Positions 3,701-45,700 of a DNA stretch of 60,000 nucleotides are shown piece after piece. The stretch is from Tubulanus polymorphus (taxonomy: Eukaryota > Nemertea > Palaeonemertea > Tubulaniformes > Tubulanidae). Within the stretch, counting starts at the first letter, position 1. The number at the start of each line of letters is the position of its first letter. Where the stretch lies: the NCBI RefSeq assembly GCF_964204645.1, contig NC_134030.1:22513210-22573209 (forward strand), given 5' to 3'. The notes beneath the pieces are model-generated. The model had not been told where the DNA came from and did not search any database. It saw only the letters and a program-made list of their open reading frames with translations. The position numbers and the translations under genes are program-made.

Positions 3701-6700
3701 GAACTGTAGAACTGAGTCCAAAAGTGTAGAACTGGATCCAGAACTGTAGAACTGGATCCAGAACTGTAGAACTGAGTCCAAAAGTGTAGAACTGGATCCA
3801 GAACTGTAGAACTGGATCCAGCCAGAACTGTGCAAGTCTTAGCTTCTTTTTCTTATTGTGTATTTTGTCCTGCTGCCTTATAAGAGTCCTCAATCCAGCC
3901 CCATATATGTATATCATACCTCTGAACGACTGATCGCGACTTTTAAGTTTTGATCTCCGATCCGCCTGCTGCGTACTCGGACGAGATTTCAATCCGGTAT
4001 CCATGACGGCGACAACCTCATCGCTGGTCGTCTGCTCATCGTCGTCTGCTCCGGGGACGGTCATCGGGATGTCGACATCAGGCCAGAAATCTTTCAGTAA
4101 CGTGGCGAATACGCTGCACTCTCGCACCGCGAGCAGACGCGGGAAAAACGCGTTACGCAACGCTGTCACTAGAGCCTCGCTTTCATTCATTACCGATTCA
4201 GCGATTTCCTCGTCTTAAAAATAGAAACAGTATCGGAGTAGTCCACGTGAAAACACCCTTTAAACTGTGTGATTTGGATATTTGAGGAGCCATCCACTAG
4301 AAAAAGGTATCCCTTCATATATTCATGGAGCCTCCCACTAACGAAAAGGTATCAATCACTTCAGATAATCATGGAACCACCCACCCACTAAAGAAAGGTA
4401 TCCCATCGGACATTCATGGAGCCACCCACTTAACAGAAAGGTACCCGCAGAAGGAGATTTTCAAACACTCCTAGTTTAAGACTTGAAATGTGGCTATGCC
4501 TCTGACAATCAGGAATCGGTTGCTCAAAAGTTGGTCGAAGTTAACTGGTTGACATAGCGACAATTTAAAGTCCATCGATACCATGGCATTCCTCCAACTG
4601 TTATCTTTAACCTATTGTTTAGTAACTTCAACCCCAGTCCAAATTGCCTTGTTTTTTGTGTCGAAAATTGTCGATGAATTTTCTTACCTTTTTCTTGCGT
4701 TTCTTGTTCATGTTTTTCTTCATCAATCTCAGCATTACCTTCGGTTTCCTCGGGGATTGTTTCCTCGAGATCGCACTGTTCGGTGGTTACTACGCAAAGC
4801 GGGAATAATCGTTTAATTTGAAATTCGAATAACCATTGAAATTCAAATTCGAATTACCGTTTAATTTGAAATTTGAAAAAAATGTTGAACTCAGAATTTT
4901 TTTGAATGAAAAATTTATCACAAGTTCAGATTTAGAATAACTGAAATTGACAGCTGTAGAACTTGGGTCCTGAGTTCTCTCGATAATCTTGTTACTCTGG
5001 GTCCTTGTGAATGTTCTCGACGATGGAATTCAACTTACCCGGGCTAGAGTTCGATTTATTGGCGAGCTGATCGAGGATGGCTCCAGCCTCGGCGCAGACG
5101 TACTTAAGTGTTCGCGGACTCCAACCGTGAGACCCGTCGTTAGCATCACATCCTGCAAATTTAGAATTCAGGAAAAATCAAATCGCGAGGAAAATAGATT
5201 TGAAATAGTCACAAACTCAGGTACTGTGAAATTGGATCCAGTTTCACAGTTTTGAGTTAGAATTCAACAATTAACCGAAAGAACTGGTAATTGTAAGTTT
5301 GAAATGAAGGTGATTGTTGTTTTGGAATTTACCTAGTCTGATGTTCTTCGAGATCGGTATATTTGTACCGAGAAGCTGTCGACACAAATCGTAAAGTGTG
5401 ACGAGTTTTTGAGCTAGTTCAAATGCTTGCAGGAAACCTGAAATTGAGACATATTTCATTGAAGTTTCTGGTAGTTAAATATTAACAGGTGGACATGGGT
5501 AGATCGAGGGCACTGCTGGGCTGATATTAATTAACATAATGTACTACAATAGAAAATAGTTAATAAATATGTAAATAATTTAGACTTTAAAACTTGTCCA
5601 GCGAGAGTTAAATTAAAGGTATTTTGAAAATAACGGCCAAAAATATGAAAGCCTGGGGGTGAGGTCTGGTGAGGTCAGCCTACATCAAGTGAGGTCAGGC
5701 GAGGTGGTTGCTGATTTCATACAAACCTTGACTAAGCAGTAAAACCTCTACTAGAAGTCTTAAATCCGGTTTAACGACGGCTACAGTTCGGAACTGACCG
5801 AGTAAAGTCTGCGGCAGCGCGGAGATCACCGAATTAAACGACAGCAGACGATCGGGATCGATCACACGCGCCTCCACGCCGTTATCGATCACCGCGAATA
5901 CCGCGCCACCCGCGACGACGGACGTCTCCTCCGAGAGCAACGTCGCCGTCGATTTCGCCGCGCGTAACGCTCCTAAAACCGACGACATCAACTGAGCGAA
6001 CGCGCTCACGACCGGAGCGGCCATCTTGTCGACGCCGTTGAAACAGACCCAACATCCGGTGGCGGCGAGGCCGCGGAATACGTCTTGTAACGAGAATGTA
6101 TCGACGTTACGGTGACTGTTGAACGTGTAGATCGGTTTACCAAGAGATCGGGCTAGTTCACTGACCAGACACTGTTTATCACATCCCTGAAACACAGAGA
6201 GAAAAAACATATACAACTCATATTACAACATGAATACAGATGATAACTAGAAATGTTGCCTTCATGGGCAAAGACATCGTGAAAAAATTCCCCAAACGCC
6301 CGCATCGGTACTTCGACGCGTGATCGTAAAACTGTATAAGGAGTACGTCCCTTTATAATTACTCTAAAACACACATCGGTTTTATTCATAACTTCAGACA
6401 TTCATCCAACAGGCTTCTCGCGCTATGCTACCACAAGATGGCGTTGGGAGTAACGGTCGGTTTTACTGAAATCAGTTACTACGGCTCCTGGATCCAGTTT
6501 TACAGTAAGTAGTTAAAGTTAACTCTGAACTCAGGATCCAGTTCCACAGTTGTGAGTTAGAGTTTACTGTGAACTCAGGATCTGGTTCCACAGTTGTGAG
6601 CTAGAGTTTAACTCTGAACTCAGGATCCAGTTCCACAGTCTTGTGAGTTTGAGTTAACTTTGAACTCAGGATTCAGTTCCACAGTTGTGAGTTAAGAGTT

Positions 6701-15700: not shown

Positions 15701-18700
15701 CCGACTAGATCAGATAAAATCACAAAATAACTTATAACATTTCTTATCATTATTTCAAGATCAAAATGATAAATATTCTAAATGGACATTCGTGGTCTGC
15801 TACTAGCAAATAACTAAATCAAATAATTATTATTACCAACATCTATTGTCATGATCAATATAATGATTATCACTATCATAATCTATTGTTTTCAATAATG
15901 ATAAATTACGATAAATCAAAGTGACTTATTAATTATCATAATTAATTACTATTCATCATTTATGATCATTTATTTTTTTTTTTGTCACCTGAATTCAATC
16001 GGTGATAAAATAGATACGATCTTCTAAAATCAAAGAATAAATTCACTTATCGAGAATCCAAATGAAGAAGCGATGAATTTTATATGAAATTTTCTCTCGT
16101 GTTGCTAGGCAATGGGTTCTATCGTTACGGACGCATTGTTGTGAAGGGGGACGATGATTTTCATCGGTCCCGGAGCGTTCCGTTTGCCGGTTACCGCTCA
16201 GTCGAATAGGAATAAACAAATACCGCTCGAGAATGAATCAGGTAAACGTTTCAATTAAACCAATTAAATAAACCTTACTTAAGAGTAGCGAAGTTAATTG
16301 AACTAATTTGCACATTCGAAAAAAATTGAACTTTTGAACATCATCTGGGAATAACTACTTGAACTGAGGCTAGATAAAATATTCACTTGTAATTAATTCA
16401 CCTTCAATTGAAATGATGGCATCTAATTTGGGTTATTTGATCAAACGGTAATTAATCTTTGTGAACTAATCAAATTGTAACCCATCTTAGACTAATTAAT
16501 CTAATTTTCCTAACCGAACCAATCTCTGATTAAAAAAAAAAGAATTTTCGTTTTCCAGACATGGATTTGAACCAGGTCGAGGAGGAAGGCACGGACAAAC
16601 TGAATACGGAGGATGCTTGTATACTCCGCAATCTGAGCGAACTACCCGACCGGGAACAGCGGGCGTCTTCGCAGAGCTCGTTAGAAATGGCCGACATTCT
16701 AATCGAAATCGACGAACGCCGACGAAAACCACCGCCGGGAATTTATGTAAAAAAGAAATCGCCGAACGACGCAAAGTTTAAGTCGAGTCGAAAGAAGTTG
16801 TTGATCGCGAGTTCGATTCAGCTGATCGCCGGGATTATCTCGTTGTTACTCGCGTGTTTCTGGCTCGCCGCCAACCCGTCGAGCGTCCACGCCGAGAAGG
16901 GTCTCTTATTCGCCGGTTTCGCCGTTTTAACAACGGCCGCCGTATCCGGTATCCGAGGCAACCGCATCGCGCTGATCCGCTGCGCCATTTTCGCCGTTTT
17001 ATCCATCGTCGTCGCGGCCGCCGCATTTTTACAAAATCTTATCGGAATCTACGCCGGCGACACCTATCGAGAAATCCCGGCAGCGTGCTCTCGGCTCGAT
17101 TGTCTCGATCATAAAATCACCGTGTTCGATTCGCGACGTGCTGCCCTCTATTATACGGCGGTGGTAACGTTTTTCGTGGGGTTTTTCGTCGCCACCGCGC
17201 AACTCTCGGTCTGCGTTTTAATTTTGACGTCGCAGGAAAATGATCACGATCAAATATTTATAGTAAATAACAGTTTGAATAACACAGCCGCCCGTTCGGA
17301 CGCTCAAACTCAAACATGAACCAATTTTTCTATTTTCGTATTCTAAGTTTCTAAAAGTTGAAGGTTGATTTCAAACGCTTAAAGTGTTTCGTTTAGTTAG
17401 ACCTGTTCCACTTTTTATTTTTGATATTTCAATTTTTAGTTTACATTTTTTATTCTAAACTGTTTGAAAATTATTTTACGTTTACGTTCTTTTTAATGTT
17501 TCTGAGCAGTTAACTTAAAATTGTTCCATTTTTAATTTTCTCATTCTAACTTCTAAAAGTGGTATTTAATACTTCTCTAATAGATTAATCCATTCTATCT
17601 TAAAAGTATATTAGATTGTTTCATTCAAAGATGAACAAATTATATTTATTTCATTTCTACACAAAACTAATAACTTTAATGAAAATTAAGCCCCATTTCA
17701 ATTTTCTTTTATTAAATTTCTTAAGCGGTTTCATGTTTTTTTTTCTTATATCTGAGTAGTTATTCTTTTGTTTCATCCAATTCGGCCTGATATCAATAAT
17801 GGTAAATAATGATAATGATAATCAATTACCAATTATTGCGCGTTATTTAAGAAGAGCAACTATTCAAGATTGTTTCAAATTTTCAGTGTATACTTGGCTC
17901 TAAACCCGAGGGTCGTCCAGTTCTTAAGTTGCAAGTCAAATTCAACTTTACAAGAGTTAAAAACTAACAAGAAGAACCAAAAATTCATCTTTTTAAAATA
18001 TCTTTCTATGTATTAGACCCAGTTCCACAGGTGTTCATCGTGATTTCATTAAAATGGAAACTAACTTCCAAGTGTAGAACTGGATCCCACAAGAGATGTT
18101 CGAAAAATTCCAGGGCTGGCGTTGGTACACTTTGTGACTATCATAGATGTCAATTAGTAACACTAAACCAACTGGATCCAGTTCCACAGTCGTGACTTAA
18201 GATTTGACTCCGAGTTAAAACATCGAAAATGAACTATTCTTAACTCAGAGTTAGCATTAACTCACAACTGCAGAACTGGGCCCTGTTCCACAGTCATGGC
18301 TTAGACTTAAGACCAATTTAAGACCATCTTAGTTCTATAACCAATCCAACAATTCAAGACTAGTCTCAAAAGTTAGGACCATTTTTGGACTTAAGTCTCA
18401 ACTGAGGAACCAGCCCCTGGACCCTGGATCCTAATAGTTTATTTCAAATTTAATTCAGTAATTGAGTTAGTTTAAATAGTACATTTAGTTTTTATGCAAT
18501 GAGCTAGGGGCGGCGATGTGACGAGAGAATGCAGCAGTCTGTAAGGGGCGGTAGAATTCAGTCTCGTGTTGTTATTTATAGAATTGAATCGAAATGTCAC
18601 GTATCAATAATAACTTTGATACATACACAACAAAGATACAGCAGACACGGAGCTGCAATAACAGGGTGTGGTCACCAGTAACCTGGGAATATACGTGCTT

Positions 18701-21700
18701 ATCACATCTATCAACTGTGCATCAAACTGATCTGTTCCGCTCTTCTGGATAAATAAACTGGATTCTAATTGTGGATTTGTAACATCAGAACAGCAGGATT
18801 TATACGCAATAACCAAAGGTAAAAATTGAGCTGATTTTGTCTCGTTTTTCAATGTTTTGCGTTCATTGGAAAAATGAAGTCAACGAATACAAAGTAAATG
18901 AACTACAAATTCTGAGACCTAACTTGAAACAAGGCTCTGGGCTCATACTGGTTAGATTGGCTATATATGGGTCATATGGTTAGATTATAAGACCAAGCCT
19001 AAGTCGATGTTTGTTCTATGACCAGTCAAACTTGAGATTCTTATATCAAAAGGGATATATTTTCACTAAGTATGATAAAACTCATAATTTTGATTTAATC
19101 TGCTTTGATTTATGTTGAACAATCAAAAATTCCATAATTCATTCATTCTATTTCTAAACTGTATAATTTCACTTATATTATACATATATAATTTATAAAT
19201 CCCATATGAAAAGCCTGAATTTTGAATGGGGCCCTAAATTATCTGTTTACAACTGGCAGTATATAGTAGTGTATGACACCTGATCACTGCTCACTCACTG
19301 AGGTCACATGACCACCACTGACCAATCACTGGCCAGCTACTAGGGTTAGCCAATCACAGAAACCCTAGCAGACTAGTAGGTCACCTTGGGAACTAAGGTT
19401 AGCCAATCACAGAAACCCTAGCATACCACTTATGTCACCAACTGGCTGACCAATCAGAGACGAGGACTTAGGGTTAGATTACAGCCAATCAGTTACCCTA
19501 GGGTTAGCCAATCACAGACACCCTAGCAGACCAGTTCATGTTGACCCAGAGGCCAGGTATAACAGGCCAGCTGAGAGTCCAATGATATTCTAAATAGATA
19601 TCTACAGCCAGTCTATTTTCATGGATCTATAGCTGATCTAACAGCTTATGTAGGGAAACCTGTTGAAATGACCGCTTGGTTTTATAGCCAATCTCCACAA
19701 CGTGTTTCAGAGTTGCACCCACCCAACTCGTTTTCAGATTCACCCCTCTGAAAATCAGCCACTCTGTATAAAATATCTGCTGCCTTTATCTGACTAAATA
19801 TTGTATCAATGCTGATACATGGAATATATTGAGCTAATGTGACAAATAGTATACCAAAATAAAGCATACATTTTTCGAAATCGCAAACCTTGCTAGCTAC
19901 TTGGGCAGTCATGATGTCATACAATGAATGCAGCACCTTTAACATTCCAGCATATGGAGAACACTGGATCTTACAGCCCACTTCTTCAGGCCGGTCTAAA
20001 GATCTAAGCCCACTTCTTCTGGCCGGTCTAAAGATCTAAGCCCACTTCTTCAGGGAGGGCTAAAGATCTAAGCCCACTTCTTCAGGCCGGTCTAAAGATC
20101 TAAGCCCACTTCTTCAGGGAGGGCTAAAGATCTAAGCCCACTTCTTCAGGCCGGTCTAAAGATCTAAGCCCACTTCTTCAGGGAGGGCTAAAGATCTAAG
20201 CCCACTTCTTCAGGCCGGTCTAAAGATCTAAGCCCACTTCTTCAGGGAGGGCTAAAGATCTAAGCCCACTTCTTCAGGCCGGTCTAAAGATCTAAGCCCA
20301 CTTCTTCAGGCCGGTCTAAAGATCTAAGCCCACTTCTTCAGGGCGGTCTAAAGATCTAAGCCCACTTCTTCAGGGAGGGCTAAAGATCTAAGCCCACTTC
20401 TTCAGGCCGGTCTAAAGATCTAAGCCCACTTCTTCTGGCCGGTCTAAAGATCTAAGCCCACTTCTTCTGGCCGGTCTAAAGATCTAAGCTCACTTCTTCA
20501 GGCCGGTCTAAAGATCTAAGCCCACTTCTTCAGGCCGGTCTAAAGATCTAAGCCCGTCTAAAGATCTAAGCCCACTTCTTCAGGCCCGTCTAAAGATCAA
20601 AGCCCATTTCTTCAGATCTAAGCACATTTCTTCAGGCCGGTCTAAAGATCTAAACCCCCTTCTTCTGGCCGGTCTAAAGATCTAAACCCACTTCTTCTGG
20701 CCGGTCTAAAGATCTAAGCTCACTTCTTCAGGCCCGTCTAAAGATCTAAGCCCACTTCTTCAGGCCCGTCTAAAGATCTAAGCCCACTTCTTCAGGCCGG
20801 TCCAAAGATCTAAGTCCTCTCAAGAAATGAAGCTATGAAGTGAAATTTCCAATAATGATTAATAATTCTATGATAATGTTGTTATATTTAACAGTGATGA
20901 CACATGGACAGTGATTTATACACAACAGACCAGCACAGTCTGTACCCGCGTATACCCAGAATTCCTGAACATGACCTGAACGACCTCGACCTTCAAAGAC
21001 AACCACCGCAGCAGACGACTCCGACGATGACTCCGACGATTAGTCAAATCCCGATGCCGAACGAACCGCAAAGCGAAGTCCCGCCCGGTTTCCATCTTTT
21101 AGCCGCGTTGCAACAACAACAACAACAACAACGACAAACAAACAATTCGGGATTCTCAACAATGAACGTTGCCGGGCAACCGAGTTATGATTCACAGGCA
21201 GATGGAGCAGTGAAACGCTTCTCGAAAGCGAACGCAATTTTGGGCGCATTTCAGATCGTTAACGGGCTGTTTTTTATCGGCGCCGGTTTAACGTGGTTAC
21301 TATACTGGATTACGCCGTTGAACTTCTCCGTTTCAACCATCGTGGGCGGAGTTGTTATGCTAATTACCGGTAGTCTAGGCGTCGGTGGTCGCCGCGGTTA
21401 CAAGCGTTCGGTACTAGTAACGTGCGTGATATTCTGCGTATTTTCCGGCTTGGCGTCCGCCGGTTTGTTCACGTATAATTTCCTGTATTTCATCGCGTCT
21501 TATTGTTTTAGACGTTTCCTCAACCACGCGCCCCTCACTGGTATGACCTCGCCGTGCGTGGTTTATTTCGTCGGGTTGGTGCTCGCCGGCGTCGAGTTCA
21601 TAGTCGCCGTCGTTCAGGCCGGATACTGCAGTCACCAGGCGTGCTCCACCGCTAACAAACCGCAACAACCGATTTACAACTATTTCTATGTAACCAACGG

Positions 21701-24700
21701 CGCCGAACAGATCATACCATCGGCGCCCTCTAGCGACGGTACGGTACCGCCACCTGCCTATAGCACGTATGATAGGCGTTGAACGATTAACCCTTTTCTG
21801 CCTAATCCTACATTTACTGCGCAAATCATTATTGCACCTACTACAACTAATGATTTCTTGAAAACTCCTTCAAAATGGAAAATCAAACTCCTTTAATTCG
21901 AGCAAATGCCCGAAACTCTTTGAGAACTCCTTAACCCTTTCAGTGCGTCTACACCGCAGTGAGGTGTATAGATCGGTGATGAATTTTGCTAGTACACCGC
22001 ACTGCAGTGTATTGATGTTATTAGTAATTAGTCTTATCTCTATTAAAGATGGCAGCACCTGTCAGACATAGTGAAATATCAGTAACTAATGATACACTCC
22101 GCCGCAGTGTAGACGCACTATAGTGGTATTCCCGTTATTCAACACACTAGGGTGGAATTTCTCAAAGTTTTCAAATCATCTCCAGCACTATAAGGTGTTA
22201 ATGAGTCAGCACTGAAAGGGTTAAATCTTTAAAAACAGATATTCAGAAATGTTTGTCTAGTTCGTAGTTGTAGAGTCAACTATCCCTAAATCAGTAGAGT
22301 TGGGACTTACTGAATTATGAACCAAGTTTAGCTAGTGTAAAGACTAATAATGGCTTATAAAACCACCAGACTACTGAGATAAATAGTACTGATGAGTCGT
22401 ACTGTAATTGACTCTCATCAAAATTTGAAATTTTCTCCTTTAAAACTCCGTACACAGAGGAACGACTGATCTGTAGGTACCCGGTATGCATTAGAAATCT
22501 AGTTGGTCATTCTGTAAAAACAGCTGTTAAAACAATTTGAATTGAACACCTTTCTGCGTAGCCCCACTTACTGGGCCAACCTTATTCGACCAAATATTCA
22601 ATTTCACTTTTTGTCTTTCTGACGGAAGCTTTTCAATTAGTTAAACCTCAATTACTGATTCAATCCGTTTTTACCTCAAGCCACCATTACTGGGTAAACC
22701 CTGCTTTCCACTAGCATGAGCCCTAATATAACTTATCAATTACTGTCGTAACGGCTTATCAAAACTCTAGGCTCCACTTGGGAACCTTTCTCTAAAATCC
22801 TGTTAATTGTTTTTCCTGTTTAAAACTCGATTTTTCTGTAGTTAAATGGTTTTCACACATGAAAATTATGTGCTTTCTAGATCACTAGACGCCAAGGGCT
22901 AACTCGTGCTTAGTCAACTAATTTGTTTATCATCTAAAAGTTTGTGTTAATCTAATTAGAAATATTCCGTAGTTGATTCTATCACGATCAGAGGTGACCT
23001 CTGTATGCCTGAATTTGTTAAATAAATACAAAGCTTAAGATTAAGATTGTACCTTACCCCCAGCGGTATGTACTATTTGAAGTTGTATATTTTTTGAAAG
23101 GTTGTATTTGCTGTGATATATTATGTGACACTACTCTCTGTAGACGTTGATTTATTTCTTTTATCGTCGTTTTTAAATTAGAATTTATAAATATTTGCTC
23201 CGTATGAAAATTGTTACACGTTCAACACAAATCAAAATAAAAGATTTTATTCGTTTAAATGAATGGAGCGTTATTCGATGATTCTAAGCGCAACCATTTT
23301 CCGAGTTGGCGAGGGGAACCCAGAGAGACAAGGGGCCGCTCGTAGATAATTGGAAGGCTGAGATCAGACGAAAAGGCATCTCTAGTTTGAAGAAATACAT
23401 CCTGACAGATGCGATTTCCGAGGGGATGAGCATCTAATTTGCAACGATCTGTTCCGACGTAAAAGGGCAACCTCAACGAAAAGGCAGGTACCAGTCCATC
23501 GAAACCACACCCAACATCTGACCAAGTACAATCATTTGAGGACTAACATTTAAGTTTAACATTTGCAGGTATTTACTCAGACACCTAAATATCTGCAGGT
23601 ATTTACCCAGTTGCGAGTCAGACAACTAGTTCCAACAGTTGTAAGAGTTTGATTTACCTTTATCTTTCATTAAACTTCCCCTTCGACTTTCTGCAAAATA
23701 AAATAGACAAAATATGTATAGAATTGTGACAAATTCTAATGTGATTTGCCCCTTTATTTCCTGAATCTCAACTTCTGGTAATAGGGGTGACCGAAACACT
23801 GATGATATATTCTCAAAAGGTTTTTCAAATGGACAATAAACGAAACCAACAAAATGATCATATATAGATTTGTATATAATCGATTGTGGGTTTCGCTAAT
23901 AGGGGTATCCCTAAAATCTTAATGCAAGCGGTTTAAAACTTGTTGACGAACAGTTCTTGTGTGAAGAGAGGAGGAAATTGAATTCAATTTAATTTAATCA
24001 ACTTTCTGCAACAACTATTCCGGGCAAAATGTTTAACTGTGCACACATACTGTTCGCAATGGGAGACAACAAATGCCAATTTAAGAGATAGAAAAGAGTT
24101 CGCTGTAGAAAGGTTCTCTTACTTGAGAATTAAGAATATTTTGCATATTGTGGAAAACCACTGTGGGAAGTTTTACTGATGACGAAAATGATGAATACCT
24201 CTTGATGATTTATCTTTGCCGGTGATAGTGACTCTACGCACTCCGGCGCTGTGGATCTCGCGATGGATCTGACGCGGTTTCTCCAGTCCCATCGCCGTGG
24301 CAAGCTGGTATTGTAACGCCGTCTTAATCGAGCCGATTAAATCGGGAAGCCACGATTCAACTTGACCGTCGCAAATCAAAGCCTGTATAAAATAAACGCA
24401 CGAAACTTTTATACTCTTATTTTCTCATGAAAACTTAAATCTCTACACTCTCAAGTTGTCGTTAGACAAATGAAGGTTTATGAAAGCTGGTCGAAAATAG
24501 CTATAGATAGAAGTACAAATGTAGTATGGATGGATGGAGGAATTAATGAATGAATGAATGAATGAATGAATGCTTTATTCTCCCTAATAACAAATAATTG
24601 ATATACGCACTTAAATACAATTCAAGAAAAGGACATCTCCAAGCCGGGGCCTGTACCATAAGGGGAGATGCCCTGTAGTAAACATGGTCTTGAAAGGGTT

Positions 24701-27700
24701 AGACTTTATTGATAGGTTCAGGTGACAAATTCAGGTTTTTGAACGGAGAAGAGCCTAGTCTCTTACATAGGGGCAGTATGCAAATCAAAAGATCTAAAAG
24801 AGTCATAGTTTCATAACAATATGAATTCAAAATTACCAAATTTTACCCAAGTTTTTTACTAGTGATTTTTCTATTCTGCCAGATACCATCATACTAGACG
24901 GGCGTCAACATTATACTGATGACTGGTTGTTGAAGGTGATTTTAAAGAAAAATCGCTGAAGAAAGTGGTCCTAGGGCAATTGCTATTTCAGAACTATGCT
25001 GAATGGTGTAAAATTAATTTCCCAAAGTAAATGAAAATCTATCAGATAATTCCTGATATTTTCAAACAGCGAAATGTGATTTTGAAATACTGAAGTTTTT
25101 CCTGATTTTACCGGTACTGTAGAAAGCTGTACAGAATAACGAGAGAAATCCCACAATAACGAAGCCAAGATTGAAAAATTCTATATCAGAATGATTATAT
25201 TTTTGAGGAGCGACATCTAACAACTGTTGGCCATCATCAAGCGTACTGGAACGTACTCAGTACGCCTGATGATGGCTAACAGTTGTTAGCCGAAACATCG
25301 CACCTCAAATACAATCATTCCGATATAGAATTTTTCAATCTTGGCTTCGTTATTGTGGGATTTCTCTCGTCATCATCATACACGGATATTGTGTATCTTC
25401 TCGTCTAGCTGTACAGAATAACCTCTTTAGAAGTAAGCAAATAAATATCATCTATAAAAGTTGTAAGTAGGCTCGGAACTTACGTCAACAAATGATAGTT
25501 TTTCGCCAAGTGCGCAGAGTATTCCGTTTATACTGAACACCGACTTATCGCCCTCTTCGATAATCTCATACGATAAACCACCGATATTCTCAAACAGTTT
25601 ATTGATATATCGATTCATTTGACCGATGTCGTAACCTACAAATGAATACAGTCAGAAACAAACATCAGTCAGAAATTAATCAGAATTATCAGGTCATTTA
25701 GCGCTTTTTTCAAACATAGTCATTTTCTTTATTAAGATATAAAATCTTACAAATATCCGTTTAACCCTTTCAGTGCTGACTAATTAATACCCTACAATGC
25801 TGAAGATAATTTAAAAATTTTGAAAAATTCCACCCTAGTGTTTTGAATAACGGGAATACCACTAATGCGTCAACACAGTAGCGCGATGTATCGTTAGTTA
25901 CTAGTATTTCACTGTTTGACAGGTGCTGCCATTTTTCAAAAGAGATAATTACTAATTACATCAATACATCGTAGTGCAGTGTACTAGCAACATCTATCAC
26001 TAATTTATACACCGCACTGCGGTGTAGACGCACTGAAAGGGTTAAATAATGAATAAAGTATTTTTCATACTATGAAAATTTCGAATTCGAAATAACCGAT
26101 TAATTCAGTGCGTTTATTACCGTTGCAGACGATATGCAGCACGTCTTCTAAAGACAGGAAATAGAAACGTGGAAATTTCTGCCGACGTCTCTCCAGATGA
26201 TTCAACAGTGACTTGCGACAATTCTCCAACACGGCATCCATTCGTTCCAAAATATGCGAGATATCTAAACACGGAAATAATATCATAGTTTACAGTCAAA
26301 AAACCCTAGAGTCATTCGCATGGTTTTTGGCTCTAAGTTGACTCTCGCAGTCATTTTTCAAACTTTGGCAGACTTAACTGTTGAACTAGGTCTAGCATTC
26401 AGTACCACTTAAATTTTGATTTTAAGGTTTCAAAACATTGGAATTTAACTAATTTTTACTCTTAACCAGGGCTAGGTTTCATAGATGTGGAAACAAAATA
26501 ATCCCTGGGAATATTTTGAAATTTGTCAGTTGAAACCATGGTTTCTCATTGTTAGTATGGTGGTTGTCTTGTCACCCAGATAGAGGATTTACCCCTAGGG
26601 ATAACTTTGATACTCAGTCTATGAAACCGGTCTCAGATTGAGGATTTACCCCTAGGGATAACTTTGATACTCAGTCTATGAAACCGGTCTCAGATTGAGG
26701 ATTTACCCCTAGGGATAACTTTGATACTCAGTCCATGAAACCAGGCCCAGGAATAAAACAAGAAAACTGGATGCGAAGATTAAACATTTTTCATTTATCA
26801 CTCAATAAAAAGAATGAATGAATGAATTATTTTTGACATATTATTTTTTCAGGCAGACTCACTCTTTCTCTGGCAACATTGTAAAATGTTCGGATTTTTC
26901 TCCGTTGCTTTCATCAGTAACTGGAAATCGCGGTTCACCGTCAAGAACTTGTTGTAGTCGTGAGAGAGGGTCGCTCTAACATCCGTACCGGAATAAACCT
27001 GTAATACAGAAACTATACAATGAGACAATCAATTGTGACTTATGAAATTTTAGAGTTGGCAGACGATTTAAAAATGTTCCTAGGTTAATGCTTGGGAGAG
27101 CTTTGATTTTGGATACAAGCCCTCAGGTTGGGTTAAAAAAAAAGTTTAAAGAACCCTTGAATGAATTAAATTTCTACATTGATGCGGTTCATTATCAATG
27201 GAATTCTGAGTTAATCATATCATTTTTTGTGAAAATCTGTAAAACCAGTTGCCGAGCTGAAGTTGAACTGGGTTCAGTTTCAACCTGAAAGAGTACCCGG
27301 TTACGATTTCTTCATGAATTCTGTTTATCTTACATCAATTTGAGTCGATCATCAACTGAACTCTTGATTTTCATGAATTCACATATAACACACGCACCTC
27401 TTGTAGTTCGAGCCATTTTTCCTGCACTGATAACCAGATCGTCAACACAGCTTCGATCGTCTGCAGACGTTTTTGCCATTTAACGACCTCGTCGAGGAAA
27501 GACCCGGCCGCGCTGCTCGTCTGCATCGCTTGAAGCATCATCTGATGACTTTCCAGTAATTCGAATATCGCGTCCGTGTTATTCAACAGATATAAACCAC
27601 CTTCCGTTTCATTCTACCAAATAATCAATAATCATTATTCATTACTAGGAAAACATTACAGTGAAACTCTGATAGTCTTTTGTAGTTGTGACGATCATGA

Positions 27701-30700
27701 TGTTGATGATTAGTTACATTTAGTTTACAAATTGAGAATCAAAGATAGAGACAACTTCAGGATCCAGTTCCACAGCTGTGAGTAACTCTGAGTTAAATCT
27801 TAACTCACAAATGTGGAAGTGGATCCAGTAATCCAAATGACTTATCAAACTCGAATGTATTTTGAGAAATTCAACATAAAATCATCATGCTATGTCTGTA
27901 TTTGTTCATGTATTTGTGGGAAAAAAGTTTCAATCTGGCTCCAGGTCCCTAGTTATAGACCAGTATTACGTTTCACCTATGGGGTTAGTTAATTCATTTT
28001 CAATTAAGTCAACCCCCAGGTTAAAGATAATACAGTCGTTTAATACAATTTTAATATTCTATAAAACCAGGCCCAGGTGAAAAGTAGAGTTTGGGGGTTA
28101 GACTCACCTAACCGATGTTGACCAGTGAGTTCAGGGGGGCTATGGGTGTTAGACTCACCTCACTGATATTGACCAGTGAGTTTAGGGGGGCTATGGGTGT
28201 TAGACTCACCTCACCGATATTGACCAGTGAGTTCAGGGGGGCTATGGGTGTTAGACTCACCTCACTGATATTGACCAGTGAGTTTAGGGGGGCTATGGGT
28301 GTTAGACTCACCTAACCGATGTTGACCAGTGAGTTTAGGGGGGCTATGAGTATTAGACTCACCTCACCGATATTGACCAGTGAGTTCAGGGGGGCTATGG
28401 GTGTTAGACTCACCTCACTGATATTGACCAGTGAGTTTAGGGGGGCTATGGGTGTTAGACTCACCTAACCGATGTTGACCAGTGAGTTTAGGGGGGCTAT
28501 GAGTATTAGACTCACCTCACCGATATTGACCAGTGAGTTTAGGGGGGCTATGAGTATTAGACTCACCTCACCGATGTTGACCAGTGAGTTTAGGGGGGCT
28601 ATGGGTGTTAGACTCACCTCACCGATGTTGACCAGTGAGTTTAGGGGGGCTATGGGTGTTAGACTCACCTCACCGATGTTGACCAGTGAGTTTAGGGGGG
28701 CTATGAGTATTAGACTCACCTCACCGATGTTGACCAGTGAGTTTAGGGGGGCTATGAGTATTAGACTCACCTCACCGATGTTGACCAGTGAGTTTAGGGG
28801 GGCTATGGGTGTTAGACTCACCTCACCGATGTTGACCAGTGAGTTTAGGGGGGCTATGGGTGTTAGACTCACCTCACCGATGTTGACCAGTGAGTTTAGG
28901 GGGCAATGGGTGTTAGACTCACCTCACCGATGTTGACCAGTGAGTTTAGGGGGGCTATGAGTATTAGACTCACCTCACCGATGTTGACCAGTGAGTTTAG
29001 GGGGGCTATGAGTATTAGACTCACCTAACCGATGTTGACCAGTGAGTTTAGGGGGCAATGGGTGTTAGACTCAACTCACCGATGTTGACCAGTGAGTTTA
29101 GGGGGGCTATGGGTGTTAGACTCACCTCACCGATGTTGACCAGTGAGTTTAGGGGGGCTATGAGTATTAGACTCACCTCACCGATGTTGACCAGTGAGTT
29201 CAGGGGGGCTATGAGTATTAGACTCACCTCACCGATGTTGACCAGTGAGTTTAGGGGGGCTATGGGTGTTAGACTCACCTCACCGATGTTGACCAGTGAG
29301 TTTAGGGGGGCTATGAGTATTAGACTCACCTAACCGATGTTGACCAGTGAGTTTAGGGGGCAATGGGTGTTAGACTCACCTCACCGATGTTGACCAGTGA
29401 GTTTAGGGGGGCTATGGGTGTTAGACTCACCTCACCGATGTTGACCAGTGAGTTTAGGGGGGCTATGAGTATTAGACTCACCTCACCGATGTTGACCAGT
29501 GAGTTTAGGGGGGCTATGAGTATTAGACTCACCTCACCGATGTTGACCAGTGAGTTTAGGGGGGCTATGAGTATTAGACTCACCTAACCGATGTTGACCA
29601 GTGAGTTTAGGGGGGCTATGAGTATTAGACTCACCTCACCGATGTTGACCAGTGAGTTTAGGGGGGCTATGGGTGTTAGACTCACCTCACTGATATTGAC
29701 CAGTGAGTTTAGGGGGGCTATGGGTGTTAGACTCACCTCACCGATATTGACCAGTGAGTTCAGGGGGGCTATGGGTGTTAGACTCACCTCACCGATGTTG
29801 ACCAGTGAGTTTAGGGGGGCTATGGGTTTTAGACTCACCTCACTGATATTGACCAGTGAGTTTAGGGGGGCTATGGGTGTTAGACTCACCTCACCGATAT
29901 TGACCAGTGAGTTTAGGGGGGCTATGGGTGTTAGACTCACCTCACCGATGTTGACCAGTGAGTTTAGGGGGGCTATGGGTGTTAGACTCACCTCACCGAT
30001 ATTGACCAGTGAGTTTAGGGGGGCTATGGGTGTTAGACTCACCTCACCGATATTGACCAGTGAGTTTAGGGGGGCTATGGGTGTTAGACTCACCTAACCG
30101 ATGTTGACCAGTGAGTTTAGGGGGGCTATGGGTGTTAGACTCACCTCACCGATATTGACCAGTGAGTTTAGGGGGGCTATGGGTGTTAGGCTCACCTAAC
30201 TGATATTGGCAGTGAGTTTAGGGGGGCTATGGGTGTTAGACTCACCTCACTGATATTGACCAGTGAGTTTAGGGGGGCTATGGGTGTTAGACTCACCTCA
30301 CCGATGTTGACCAGTGAGTTTAGGGGGGCTATGGGTTTTAGACTCACCTCACCGATGTTGACCAGTGAGTTTAGGGGGGCTATGTGTGTTAGACTCACCT
30401 CACCGATGTTGACCAGTGAGTTCAGGGGGGCTATGGGTTTTAGACTCACCTCACCGATGTTGACCAGTGAGTTTAGGGGGCAATGGGTGTTAGACTCACC
30501 TCACCGATGTTGACCAGTGAGTTTAGGGGGGCTATGGGTGTTAGACTCACCTCACCGATGTTGACCAGTGAGTTTAGGGGGGCTATGGGTGTTAGACTCA
30601 CCTCACCGATGTTGACCAGTGAGTTCAGGGGGGCTATGGGTGTTAGACTCACCTCACCGATGTTGACCAGTGAGTTTAGGGGGGCTATGGGTGTAAGACT

Positions 30701-33700
30701 CACCTCACCGATGTTGACCAGTGAGTTTAGGGGGGCTATGGGTTTTAGACTCACCTCACCGATGTTGACCAGTGAGTTTAGGGGGGCTATGGGTGTTAGA
30801 CTCACCTCACCGATGTTGACCAGTGAGTTTAGGGGGGCTATGGGTTTTAGACTCACCTCACCGATGTTGACCAGTGAGTTTAGGGGGGCTATGGGTGTTA
30901 GACTCACCTCACCGATGTTGACCAGTGAGTTCAGGGGGGCTATGGGTGTTAGACTCACCTCACCGATGTTGACCAGTGAGTTCAGGGGGGCTATGGGTGT
31001 TAGACTCACCTCACCGATGTTGACCAGTGAGTTCAGGGGGGCTATGGGTGTTAGACCCACCTAACCGATGTTGACCAGTGAGTTCAGGGGGGCTATGGGT
31101 GTTAGACTCACCTCACCGATATTGACCAGTGAGTTCAGGGGGGCTATGGGTGTTAGACTCACCTCACTGATATTGACCAGTGAGTTTAGGGGGGCTATGG
31201 GTGTTAGACTCACCTCACTGATGTTGACCAGTGAGTTTAGGGGGGCTATGAGTATTAGACTCACCTCACCGATATTGACCAGTGAGTTTAGGGGGGCGTT
31301 ATGACTCACCTCGCCGATGTTGACCAGTGAGTTTAGGGGGGCGTTATGACTCACCTCGCCGATGTTGACCAGTGAGTTTAGGGGGGCGTTATGACTCACC
31401 TCGCCGATGTTGACCAGTGAGTTTAGGGGGGCTATGAGTATTAGACTCACCTCACCGATATTGACCAGTGATACCGGTAATGAAGAGATACTCGCTCGTC
31501 GATGACGACTAATGTTTGACGTACGACTCGTAGCACGAGCCATCGCTCGACTCGCTCGACTATCGGTCGTGCTTCCTAAACCTTGATTCGTCGATTCTGA
31601 CGTCTCACTTTTCTGTTCCTGAAATTCAACGATTTTTAACATTTCAAATACACATGTACGCGTATGGTACAACATGCACATGTCAATATACATGCGTATG
31701 TACAATAAAACATGCACATGTCAATAAGCATGTGTAAATAGAGTAAAACATGCACATGTCAATATACATGTGCATGTACAGTAAAACATGCACATGTCAA
31801 TGAAACTAATACATATACATTTTCTGAAATTCATGCGATTGTTTTGAGAAATATGAATTCTATGTTTTGCCTCACTTCATATGTAGTTTTGAGCAGGTTG
31901 ATAAAACGTTCTTTGAGCCCTAGAACAATCAATCATAGACAATAGGGAGCAGGTAGTAAGGGGTTAATGTTTACTTACTCCCGGTAAATCCTCTCCGGAG
32001 ACAGTCGAATCACTGCCTTTACGTATGACTTGACGATGTAGATCGAACAGTTTACTCAACCAAACTTCTTCATACGTCTTCAACGAGTTCTCGATACTCT
32101 GATCTTTTACAGCGCGGTTTACGATAGCTCTGACGTCATCAACGTGAGCTGAAACATTGTAATCATCATCTCATCTGATAGCTGAACCCCTTCAGTAGGG
32201 CGATGTGTGGATGATCAGTTTTTGAAAGTGTGCTGATAAAATGTCTAATGTCTGGTGTTTGTAGTTCATTTTCAATTAAAAATGTCTCAGATGAAGCACT
32301 GAACACATGCGAAGTGTGGACGATCAGTTTTTGAAAGTGTGCTGATAAAATGTCTAATGTCTGGTGTTTGTAGTTCATTTTCAATAAAAATGTCTCAGAT
32401 GAAGCACTGAACACATGTGAAGTGTGGACGATCAGTTTTTGAAAGTGTGCTGATAAAATGTCTAATATCTGGTGTTTGTAGTTCATTTTCAATAAAAATG
32501 TCTCAGATGAAGCACTGAACACATGTGAAGTGTGGACGATCAGTTTTTGAAAGTGTGCTGATAAAATGTCTAATATCTGGTGTTTGTAGTTCATTTTCAA
32601 TAAAAATGTCTCAGATGAAGCACTGAACGCATGTGAAGTGTGGACGATCAGTTTTTGAAAGTGTGCTGATAAAATGTCTAATGTCTGGTGTTTGTAGTTC
32701 ATTTTCAATTAAACATGTCTCAGGTGAAGCACTGAACACATGTGAAGTGTGGACGATCAGTTTTTGAAAGTGTGCTGATAAAATGTCTAATATCTGGTGT
32801 TTGTAGTTCATTTTTCAAATGAAAATGTCTCAGGTGAAGCACTGAACACATGTGAAGTGTGGACGATCAGTTTTTGAAAGTGTACTGATAAAATGTCTAA
32901 TATCTGGTGTTTGTAGTTCATTTTCATTTTCAATTAAAAATGTCTCAGGTGAAGCACTGAACACATGTGAAGTGTGGATGATCAGTTTTTGAAAGTGTGC
33001 TGATAAAATGTCTAATGTCTGGTGTTTGTAGTTCATTTTCAATTAAAAATGTCTCAGATGAAGCACTGAACACATGTGAAGTGTGGACGATCAGTTTTTG
33101 AAAGTGTGCTGATAAAATGTCTAATATCTGGTGTTTGTAGTTCATTTTCAATAAAAATGTCTCAGATGAAGCACTGAACGCATGTGAAGTGTGGACGATC
33201 AGTTTTTGAAAGTGTGCTGATAAAATGTCTAATGTCTGGTGTTTGTAGTTCATTTTCAATTAAACATGTCTCAGGTGAAGCACTGAACACATGTGAAGTG
33301 TGGACGATCAGTTTTTGAAAGTGTGCTGATAAAATGTCTAATATCTGGTGTTTGTAGTTCATTTTTCAAATGAAAATGTCTCAGGTGAAGCACTGAACAC
33401 ATGTGAAGTGTGGACGATCAGTTTTTGAAAGTGTACTGATAAAATGTCTAATGTCTGGTGTTTGTAGTTCATTTTCAATTAAAAATGTCTCAGGTGAAGC
33501 ACTGAACACATGTGAAGTGTGTGGACGATCAGTTTTTGAAAGTGTGCTGATAAAATGTCTAATATCTGGTGTTTGTAGTTCATTTTTCAAATGAAAATGT
33601 CTCAGGTGAAGCACTGAACACATGTGAAGTGTGGACGATCAGTTTTTGAAAGTGTACTGATAAAATGTCTAATGTCTGGTGTTTGTAGTTCATTTTCAAT

Positions 33701-39700: not shown

Positions 39701-42700
39701 TATTACAACTTGATATAATAATGTGGAGTGAAGAATTAGAGAATGTTATTAAACACGAACTGAACACCATTTACACAGGACATGTAATAGCGGTGCAAAT
39801 GATGCCGTTTGATGAGGTAAAAAGCGATATCATTTTCACTTTCATCGTCACCCGCGTATGATACTAGATGGGTTTCCACTGCGAGGTGAGAGACAAATAA
39901 AAATGTGGTTTTCTATTTCAGGTGAAATTAGAATGGAGACATGCGCCACCTGGTGTGGAGATACCGCATCATCCCATCCCATTCAATCATCAACCCCAGA
40001 ATCATGTGTTTATCGTTAAGTGTGAAAATGAAGAAATGTGTGAAATCTACAAATTGCGACTTCAACAATCACCGCAATCGATAGGTTCGGGTCTTGTGAT
40101 CGGTGCTAGTCGTCACGGGAACGAATACGTGTTTAGAGTGAACACTGAACCGATCAGTGAAGCGCAGACAGTTCGACCAGACATTGATCAAACTCATACT
40201 TCTCTGATTGATCCTGATAATTTAGAACATCAATTTTGTCAACTGAAATGCACAGTTGAAGAGAGGCTGAACCGATGCTGTACTGAACAACAACTAGAAG
40301 ACAGGCTGAACCGATGCTGTACTGAACAACAACTAGAAGACAGGCTGAACCAGTTCTGCACTGAACAACAACTAGAAGACAGGCTGAACCAGTTCTGTAC
40401 TGAACAACAACTTATAGCATTAGAAGGTAAACTGAACAAAACTACCAGAGATGTCAAAGGGAGAATCGATAAGGTAGAGTGGTCTACCGATGATGTCATA
40501 GGGAGAATTGATAAGGTGGAGTGGTCTACCGATGATGTCATAGGGAGAATTGATAAGGTGGAGTGGTCTACCGATGATGTCATAGGGAGAATTGATAAGG
40601 TAGAGTGGTCTACCGATGATGTCATAGAGAGAATTGATAAGGTAGAGTGGTCTACCGATGATGTCATAGGGAGAATGGATAAAATGGAGAGATCTACCAG
40701 TGATGTCATAGGGAGAATTGATAAGGTAGAGTGGTCTACCGATGATGTCATAGGGAGAATTGATAAGGTAGAGTGGTCTACCGATGATGTCATAGAGAGA
40801 ATTGATAAAGTGGAGCGATCTACCGATGATGTCAGATGCCATATGGAACGCATAGATGATGTCATTGATTCATTGATGATCAGTAAACAGGTTCAGACAG
40901 ACTACTCTCCCCCAACCTATTGAGCAGACAGGTCGACAGTCACGTATAATATGTACGCACTGCGGGACCAGTATATATATATAGGCCTATTACGTGGATG
41001 ATAATAATGTAATGAAGAGATACATTAAGAATGATGGTGGTGTATATGGACTCCATACTGATCCATCTGTTTGTACTGGAGAGAAATGAGAGATTCCTGC
41101 CTTCAGGACAAACTTTTAGAATAAATCACTGATATTTTGTTTGGATACCGTAGAACGTTAGTAATCAGTGGTCATAGTGTCTACGTGCAGTCAGAAAGAG
41201 ACGTTCATGTTTTACGTTTACTAGAAAACCCTGTAAACAGTTTGATCGATAGAAACCGAGTGAAGAGATATCAACTGCATGGACTTTACTTCATCAACTG
41301 CTTTGTTGTCGACGCACGGGAACGGATGTTTGTTTGCAAATAGCTTACTGTATTTGGTGATACACATTTCAGGGACACAATATAATTATAATTTCACTGA
41401 ATAATCAAAAACTTACATCGTTTAGATTAGATTCTAAAAGCGTATCTCGCATGTTTTTTAAACTTGTGATCGATGATTTCTTCAGTCCGGCCATCACGAT
41501 GTTATCCATATAATCGAGGTAGTCCTCCCAGGCGGGAGACGCTTTACTGATCTGAGCCGCCTCAAACGAACGATCGATGAGCTGATGAATCCGACAACCA
41601 GACGGATGAATCACCGATTCCTGCTCTTCTTCCAGTTGTCTATAAGCAGACGCACATAACGTCCATGATTATTATAGTAATAATGATAATGATTATAATA
41701 ATTCTAGCTCAGAGCTGTTCACAACAATATAGATAAAATAGATACAATTACTAGATATCGAATTAGATCTGATTCTCTAAATAGAATTTTCTAAATGACT
41801 TATTGATAAATAATACAGTGAAACTTGTTGCTGCTGAAGTCATCGCAGTTTCTGATGATCATTATATTAAACTATATCAAATAAGAAATACAAATTAAGA
41901 CTCAAAATAGAGACAACTTTAGTAATATGACGACTTATCCAAATGATGACTTACATTTAGTAAATTGAATTAGAAATACAAATTACAACAAAAAAAAAAG
42001 ATCAATCAAAGCTAGGGGTACAGTAGGGCTAGGTTTCACTAAAAGTAATCGCTCAAAAATTAGATTGAATTCAAAGTTAATAGACTGTTTTGAACGCATG
42101 AATCCAATTCAACTTCATTTCTAAATCTCGTTTTACAGTTATTCACAAAAAACAAATAATTCCTAAATCATGACTGAAAACCTGAATTAATGAGGAAAGT
42201 ATTTTGACTAGTGAATCAAACATTTTGTTAAACTGGATCCAGAGCAAATTGCGAGTCAGTGAGGAATCATTTCGCAAAAATAGAATAAGAATTCTGATAC
42301 CTCTGCCAGGTAAGAAGTATATCCATCAGGTAGCTGGTGGCCGGGTTACGAGCCGCGAACACGTCTAGTGTTAATTTCGACCACGAGAGGGCGATGTCGG
42401 ACACTTCGAGACAGTTGGTTTGCACGATATCGCGATTACTGTACATATCGACGCAGACCAACGACGAAGCGATTTCTATAAAATCAGCGCTTTCTTCCGT
42501 TTTCCAAGTGTACACCGTTAACCCTTGTTCAAACAGCTGCAAAATATCGTAAACCGCGCCGTGTGTTTCATGGAAAACAGTCAAAAAATCGGAGCCAATT
42601 TCACAGTTCTGAATTCGGACAAACCTGATCAATTTTCGTGAGTTTCTGTTCGAACAGCGGTCTCTCGACCTCCGTTAGATTCTTTACCATCGTGTTGTAT

Positions 42701-45700
42701 TTAGAAACTATCGTCTCCAATCTCGTAGCTGTCACCTGTCAATTATACAAGAATTTGATGGTGTCATAGGGTGATTTATAGAGGTGGCCATGTTATCTGA
42801 AAGTGTTTACAGTGTCTTAAGTGTCTAGCGAGGTAATTTGATGATGTCATTGGAAGTTTATGGAAGCAGACATCTTTTCTAGAAGTATTCATTGATACAA
42901 TGGCAAGGCAATAACTAGACTATCACTATTGTAGGGGTTATATGCAATAGAGGGGGAGGGGAGATGGGAGGGGGGAGAGGGGAGATGGGAGGGGGGAGAT
43001 GGGAGGGGGAGAGGGGAGGTGGTAGGGGGGTATTTTACTGACCTGTAAGTCGAATGCGTTGGTATTCCTCAGTAATTCACGAGCCTGACTCGGTAACTCA
43101 ACGTTATCGGTTCTAAGGTGGAGAGGGGGAGGGGGAGAGGGGAGATGGGGAGGTGGGGAGGGGAGGGGGGTATTTACTGACCTGTAAGTCGAATGCGTCT
43201 GTATTCCTCAATAATTCACGAGCCTGACTCGGTAACTCAACGTTAAACGGTTCCTGCGATAAATAATGAATCTCTCTCAGTAAACGAATCAACTGACGAT
43301 CGAGATTCACGTGAATCGTCGCTGCTGTAGCCGTAGATTCTTCACCGGATGCTGGATAGTTCTCCGTATCATCATCTTCCATCATTAATAGAGGTTGTTT
43401 TAGTCTGGATGTTAATTCAGCTGATATACTCAACTCCCAATCATTCAACAGTTTACCTTCATAACTACAAAATAACATTAATTTTTGTTTAGCTTGTTTT
43501 TGTTAAGATTTGATTTGAATCTCAAAACCACCAAAATAAATTAGAATTTCAACATCATTGGAATCATTCAGATTGATCTAAAACCAATCTTTAAATGGTT
43601 AAGAATGTTATTTGCATTTTATGCGTAACCACATTCATTATTGTTTCTGTGAAGGTGAAATTTAGATCAACCTCAAGACTTTCAGATGAATAAACTATGA
43701 TATATCGACAATAATGACGGATATTCAGATTTATCTAACTGAAATCTTTGGAGAAACAGTAAAGAATGTTCATTGCATTCTATACTATGATAACATTCTT
43801 TATTGTTTACGTGAAGATGCGATTTAGATAAATCTAAAAAAATCTAGATGAATAAACTTCAGATACCATAAATTGTGGGATTCTTTATCAAACTAAAGAG
43901 AATGTTTTAAAGATCCTTCTAAAGATCCCAGAGAAAAATCCAGGGTCTTTGAGAAAGGGTCCCATCGATCCCTCAAAATGCCCAGTGGTGGCAAATAGAA
44001 CTCAACATCTCAACGTAAAGTACTTACGCTTCTATGTCGTGCATGACTTCTTTATAGGTATCTCTAAGTTGCCAGCCGAGATCTCCATCCAGTGAATGTA
44101 AACTGACTTTACGCATTTTATCCATCGGATGCTGCAAAAAATCAAAAACATCTCTCTTACCAACCAGTTCCATACATCCACAATTATAAGCTCTACCCTG
44201 GACCCAGTTCCATATATCCACACTTATAGCTCTACCCTGGACCCAGTTCCATATATCCACACTTATAGCTCTATCCTGGACCCAGTTCCATATATCCACA
44301 CTTATAGCTCTACCCTGGACCCAGTTTCATATCCACACTTATAGCTCTACCCTGGACCCAGTTCCCTATATCCACACTTATAGCTCTACCCTGGACCCAG
44401 TTCCCTATATCCACACTTATAGCTCTACCCTGGACCCAGTTCCACCTCCACAAGGAAACATTTCAGACTAATGTTTTCATACTGAGTATGGAATTATATA
44501 TATTCATTATCTTTACAACACGAACTCAAGAGTGTTTCATCAATCTATAACACATACCTGCATACGTTGTTTCAATGCATGAACCCAGAATAGTTTACTA
44601 ACAACAGGAGGCATGTTCAGATGAGTCGGAGGTTTGTGTCGAAATGTATTCAACATTTCTTTGACGTGGATGATTTCTTCCGTAAAAGATTCCACTAATA
44701 TTCGATCTTTATCTTTCAAATTTGCCTGAATTCAAAAAAATTTACAATTTGCGTTACAAAGATACCGGTACTTGAGACCAGCTTTAAACTTTCCCGTAAG
44801 CAAGTAGGCATGAGTTTTACAAAATTTCAACTTTAAAATTGATTTGATTTCAACATTAATACAGTTTATCTTAAGCATAAATCATTTTTATTAAACCTCA
44901 TTCAGCACTAGAGACACTGGATTTATCTACTGAAAGAGTTGGAATTTAAGATCAACATCTCAGCAACCAGGGTAGACCTAAAATAGAGGCTTATATCAAC
45001 TATCTTCTCTAAAAGCAAAGCTACCACGCTTGAAAATATTCTCAAATTTCACTAGTTCCTCAATTCAGCTGTAAATGGAAACAAATTGGTCCTAAATCTA
45101 ATTGATTCCTCACTAGACTTAACACGAGACTCACCTGAACTAGTTCTCGTCCGCTGATGCCTTCAAACACCTCAAGCAGACGCAGCTGTGCCCCGATTGT
45201 CGGACACTGTTGAAAACTGCATCGTAAAATATCCGCTAATTTACGCTCCAATTCCTACAACCGACCGATAAACAGAAGGACAGTTAGTACGAATCGACCA
45301 ATCAGAAACCTCTAACGTTTCTAAATTATTCATTACCTTGACGACGGTTCGAAAAGCGAAGAACGCTTTCTCGAAAGCTTCCGTGGAATCAATCTTTAAA
45401 ACGTTGTCGACTTTCGCGAAGAAGTTTCCCATCGCGGTCTCATACTGAGCGTGGATCTCCTTAACGAGCGCGTCCAGACTGAGACTACCGGCGCCTCCTA
45501 TCTGAGCTGTGTCGGCGAGCAGACGGAAATGACGCGTCGTCTGCACAAGCTCAAGAACGTCGTTACATCTATAAATAAATTAAGATATGGCCGCTTTCAT
45601 CAATACATCTGTGAAATCATCAAATTTTCTCGATATTTGATTCGTGAATAGATGGCTCTCCCTAAATCTCCCTATGACATCATCAAATTGTCTATTAGTT

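Follow-up and report, generated by a model that had tools for sequence, protein, structure and literature searches.

A minisatellite carrying an exon end and its 5' splice site in a dynein heavy-chain intron of the nemertean Tubulanus polymorphus

The window analysed here comprises 60,000 nucleotides of contig NC_134030.1 (positions 22,513,210 to 22,573,209 of the forward strand, assembly GCF_964204645.1) from the nemertean Tubulanus polymorphus; coordinates below count from its first letter unless stated otherwise. A large dynein heavy-chain gene, of axonemal type, runs on the minus strand; its first mapped junction lies at 52143, and it extends beyond the left edge. The pieced-together exons matched PF08393 (E 9.9e-93) and PF12774 (E 4.8e-35), with the DHC_N2 linker followed by the AAA1 region, and the relatives found by protein search carry dynein names, which also identified the host as an animal. 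An intron of about 3.8 kb separates the exons at 31618-31451 and 27613-27398, and the greater part of it is filled by a tandem array that begins in the upstream exon and spans its real 5' splice site.

Tandem Repeats Finder placed this array at 28092-31471 (minus strand) with a period of 51, 66.7 copies and 95% matches, and splitting it at TCACTG gave 67 units, that is, about 66 extra copies beyond the native one. The first unit joins the final 21 nt of the exon (TCACTGGTCAATATCGGTGAG, 31471-31451, encoding SLVNIGE) to the initial 30 nt of the intron, and the later units repeat both the exonic and the intronic part. The first-pass annotation had recognized this composition, with a split of about 20 and 31 nt that is corrected here to 21 and 30. 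Unit length was 51 bp in 58 of the 67; copies 1-3 measure 45 bp owing to an in-frame loss of 6 nt, copies 19, 25, 41, 47 and 50 measure 50 bp each, and the last unit is cut at the array end. When 204 bp of the array were searched against the animal's own genome (268 Mb, 77 contigs), at least 22 matches were obtained, every one of them inside the dynein array. Folding prediction also gives the consensus of the 21 exonic nucleotides (31471-31451) an 8-bp hairpin closed by a loop of 4 nt (TCACTGGT/ATCGGTGA), a structure that might have promoted duplication.

The exon from which the units are taken (31451..31618, minus strand) is 168 nt long with phases 0-0, as defined by its open frame, the ortholog junction and the motif SLPxSL; two in-frame AGs allow a start at either 31618 or 31612, the latter giving 162 nt. 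Spliced alignment of the Bulinus and sea-urchin orthologs ended the exon at 31451, with the donor GT starting at 31450, and placed the acceptor at 27613, while a third ortholog, from Sinanodonta, returned no junction at 31451/27613. The next exon (27398..27613, minus strand, 216 nt, acceptor ATTATTTGGTAG/AAT, likewise placed by spliced alignment) is similar to the DNAH9, DNAH17 and DNAH10 chains, and its length means that skipping it would keep the frame. The protein search gave 831 homologs, of which the best 120 were listed, 13 retrieved and ten aligned after hand-trimming to the exon region; P0008, P0010 (Polyodon) and P0013 (Lepisosteus) were retrieved and left out of the alignment. Identity over the 466-residue query region was 64% for Sinanodonta, 61% for Solemya, 61% for Batillaria, 58% for sea urchin and 55% for Bulinus. 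In the alignment with the ten relatives, the exon occupies a loop that varies in length and ends in a conserved island around SLPxSL. This motif is present in all but Ranitomeya (SLYESL), and in five N(L/I)GE comes after it; several relatives read SLPASLLNLGE where T. polymorphus has SLPVSLVNIGE. By eye, the loop is missing from the Polyodon and Lepisosteus sequences and differs in P0008. This conservation marks the end of the exon as true coding sequence, and since orthologs share it, the array was derived from the exon and not vice versa.

With the 5' splice site lying entirely inside the duplicated stretch, almost all copies come with a donor. The donor GT is kept in 66 of the 67 units, the sole exception being copy 47 (GAG/TTGAGT, 29073..29074, minus strand), and the native form GAG/GTGAGT (31445..31453, minus strand, located by spliced alignment and weight matrix) occurs in 57, next to TAG/GTGAGT in seven and TAG/GTGGGT and TAG/GTGAGC in one each. 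A donor weight matrix was built from 51 other donors of the dynein gene, namely those at junctions with an alignment score of at least 60 from the three orthologs, weaker junctions being excluded. On this scale the common form scored at least as high as 48 of the 51, and the nine TAG forms scored lower, reaching nine of the 51 or fewer. The earlier claim of a near-universal strong donor per copy is thus borne out by both the listing and the scoring of the copies. Along the 90-kb minus strand, 70 sites match or beat the native score; 57 of these lie in the array and four are other mapped donors of the gene. The 57 array donors are indistinguishable by such scoring because they share the same nine bases with the native site.

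The reading frame was also as the first-pass annotation had described it. Use of the donors in copies 1-7 (31112..31450, minus strand) would extend the exon by 15 or 17 residues per copy to lengths of 219-507 nt, all of them multiples of three, free of stops and matched to the phase-0 acceptor, so that the native donor (0) and the first seven copies are all open and in frame; the first in-frame stop is a TAG in copy 8 (31061..31063, minus strand). Of shuffled 51-mers, 52% leave the frame of the exon open, and no selection on frame was detected among the defect-free copies 1-7 (P = 0.20 under shuffled order).

Similar arrays were sought genome-wide with a pattern of three strong donors in tandem, the reversed pattern serving as control. 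No enrichment was found at spacings of 16-46 (62 matches versus 387) or 46-76 (110 versus 315), as the control matches outnumbered those of the donor pattern; these counts are of matches, not arrays, and among the matches listed many of the 110 belong to the dynein array. Four other arrays (L054-L057) were nevertheless verified, their exon origin being checked by protein families and, for two, by solved structures; donors were counted with up to three mismatches in 14 allowed, the native one included. A TRPM channel exon carries 8 donors at a spacing of 58 or 74 with 42-57 exonic nt per copy, the PF25508 match running to the last residue. A class II tRNA synthetase array has 3 donors in 72-bp units with 46 exonic nt (PF00587 across the junction) and is in frame and open. 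The VPS26 array numbers 18 donors, and 15 of 17 copies include 21 exonic nt; PF03643 and VPS26A chains match up to where the exon ends. An ARHGAP21-like PDZ exon (2yuy, residues 1-50 of 51) has 4 donors with 11-31 exonic nt, and the copies of both arrays contain stops. Between them, the four verified arrays repeat 9-57 nt of real exon and have 3-18 donors. In three of the four (TRPM, VPS26 and ARHGAP21-like), the copies either break the frame or come after a stop, which argues that no shared protein product has been selected. Inspection of open frames gave no exon evidence for six further arrays (L042, L043, L044/L059, L045, L046 and L047), and L058 had no donor cluster within the range scanned. 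In L060 the first donor follows an open frame of 81 residues with no Pfam match, and this array stands outside the verified four since no more than about 3 nt are common to its unit and the exon. The same exon end occurs at two neighbouring places (reverse-complement positions), at 4930 adjoined by a 39-bp donor-bearing array and at 353 without one, the latter being an empty site within the genome.

Within the dynein gene itself, splice sites are seldom found in arrays. The 38 arrays that cover 22% of its mapped span contain two of its 52 donors and none of its 52 acceptors, against a mean of 11.2 donors under random placement. There is no donor enrichment in the arrays of this span but a depletion (P = 0.0025 for two or fewer, with a control that ignores the avoidance of coding exons by arrays). 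Arrays at splice sites are rarer than chance, as would be expected if most of them are harmful. The second case is a two-copy 139-bp duplication at 42981..43253 (minus strand), detected by Tandem Repeats Finder and spliced alignment, which likewise contains an exon end and its donor (...NAFDLQ/GTCAGT) and is out of frame, 139 not being divisible by three.

It was also considered whether RNA structure could mask the copies and single out the native donor. The unit holds a TCAC...GTGA self-complementarity, and in the folding model the log10 unpaired probability was -5.1 for the native donor and -4.6 (median) for the other 66 array donors, compared with a median probability of 0.017 (log10 about -1.8) for the 51 other donors of the gene. 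A single-copy context already gave -4.7. The native donor ranked 58th of 67 in openness with a window of 120 and 16th with a window of 200. When the TCAC partner was altered, the array became about ten times more open (-3.7), which shows that the pairing has an effect within the model. Arrays of shuffled units were as closed as the real one in 50 of 150 cases, and with the native donor equally closed, structural masking was rejected.

Arrays that repeat a splice donor are already known. The human IFI6 (6-16) minisatellite, described by Turri et al. in 1995, reportedly has a much shorter unit and fewer copies. It resembles the dynein case in being a tandem repeat at an exon end whose units carry alternative donors, two downstream repeats serving as donors and giving three mRNAs (PMC4526556), but it belongs to another gene and animal, and here the 51-bp unit carries seven real exon codons in 66 extra copies. 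The variable number tandem repeat (VNTR) in intron 18 of ABCA7 is a long array whose 25-bp unit starts at the GT of the exon 18 donor, so that its approximately 12-427 units repeat that donor. Retention of one unit amounts to 2 +/- 1% independently of array length, whereas skipping of exon 19 grows with VNTR length, from 12% to 45% by tissue and up to 45 +/- 10% in one brain region (PMC5954066). It differs from the dynein array, with its 51-bp unit, 21 exonic nt and seven in-frame copies, in that the accessible text describes no exon-derived part and one-unit retention shifts the frame (PMC5954066). A human survey found that tandem repeats at exon-intron boundaries alter splicing (PMC2812944). 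The tandem duplications known to create introns also cross an exon-intron boundary and double splice signals; they are, however, single events across an intron end and exon start that yield a new intron, whereas the dynein array consists of many donor-side copies inside an existing one. No precedent for several exon-carrying donor arrays in one genome was found in a limited search of open-access literature, which is no proof of absence.

Taken together, the array is probably a mostly neutral minisatellite that duplicated a splice donor and is tolerated as a by-product of a repeat-rich genome. It would have started with a tandem duplication of roughly 51 bp, made up of 21 nt of exon end and 30 nt of adjoining intron, and reached some 66 extra copies by minisatellite growth. 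By analogy with the human cases, the acceptor of the next exon may pair chiefly with the first donor at 31450, and a small share of transcripts may use copy 1 or 2, adding in-frame repeats of 15-17 residues (+51 or +96 nt). Deeper donors would be used rarely, or would lead to stops and decay, and an array this long may bring about some skipping of the 216-nt next exon as well. It is possible that the arrays which survive are those that keep the first donor intact beside the exon, as when an array grows downstream. The alternative put forward in the first-pass annotation, that the copies are decoys the cell must ignore, comes nearer to this explanation, but in the human precedents the first one or two repeats can serve as donors. 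Several observations weigh against neutrality. The retention of GT in 66 of 67 units and the open frame of copies 0-7 are equally predicted by a functional array; the array donors are predicted to be poorly accessible, the native one included, and structure does not explain a preference for donor 0. The RNA precedents (IFI6 and ABCA7) concern other genes, in human. In ABCA7, alternative transcripts jointly exceeded the canonical one in 90% of Brodmann area 10 samples (PMC5954066), so that a donor array need not be harmless.

A different possibility is that the strong downstream U1 sites compete with or delay the true donor, resulting in less correct mRNA or in skipping of the next exon that depends on copy number. 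The concentration in the array of 57 of the 70 minus-strand sites that score as high as the native donor is in keeping with it, as is the rise of ABCA7 exon 19 skipping with VNTR length to 45 +/- 10% in one brain region, although its authors note that the skipping may act via other bound factors (PMC5954066). The Elysia protein model P0006 joins NLGE straight to the exon after next, and the 216-nt exon could be skipped in frame, but the model is from another species, and we regard such dampening of splicing as unlikely. The copies might instead generate length variants, regulated use of donors 0-7 producing a loop with 0-7 extra SLVNIGE motifs. Copies 1-7, the three 45-bp variants included, are open and in frame, the tRNA-synthetase array is likewise open through its copies, and the loop varies in sequence and length across species and so may tolerate inserts. 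By chance alone a given frame would be open in about half of cases, however, with P = 0.20 for copies 1-7; the TRPM, VPS26 and ARHGAP21-like arrays are unusable for in-frame extension; and retention of one ABCA7 unit reaches only 2 +/- 1% (PMC5954066). The built-in generator of protein variants proposed in the first-pass annotation is therefore unsupported, and we consider regulated use of the copies rather improbable. A bolder version holds that growing minisatellites have time and again taken up exon ends together with their donors, in at least five genes of the genome, and that the in-frame dynein copies are used to multiply the conserved SLVNIGE motif in a disordered loop, with hypervariable copy number as the dose; it seems to us just as doubtful.

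The two remaining alternatives concern the array itself. It could be older and purely intronic, the exon end merely resembling it, with the true donor upstream, for example at CCG/GTATCA, which is a possible phase-0 donor. That site scores at least as high as only five of the 51 other donors, relatives extend through SLxNxGE, and two of the three orthologs put the donor at 31450 while the third returned no junction there, making this origin highly improbable. Tandem arrays are also hard to assemble, and copy number could have been inflated, or the array collapsed or misplaced; but neighbouring copies share variants, such as the three consecutive 45-bp copies, and successive exons of a single gene flank the array, so that an artefact is scarcely to be expected.

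A donor array of this kind offers a natural test of how the spliceosome chooses among dozens of near-identical donors that differ mainly in their distance from the exon. Together with the four verified arrays it forms a graded series within one organism (3-18 donors and 9-57 exonic nt in the four, in or out of frame), and it illustrates a way in which a minisatellite could extend a protein stepwise without touching the exon.

The dynein gene has a further peculiarity. The consensus of the AAA1 Walker A motif is GxxxxGK[ST]. Read by eye, the corresponding segment is GPAGCDKQ, across junction 7141/6186 (7284-5727, minus strand), and departs from it; the motif is also off consensus in relatives (GPVEAGKY in Sinanodonta, GSNLSGRV in sea urchin and GPREGTKL in Bulinus). 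From these sequences, the gene looks like a member of an animal dynein family whose main ATP site is dead. On the plus strand, within the span of the gene, two open reading frames (16534-17319 and 20901-21782) resemble multi-span membrane proteins by eye, and another one of 340 residues contains in-frame coding tandem repeats of 39 and 42 bp at 40258-40834.

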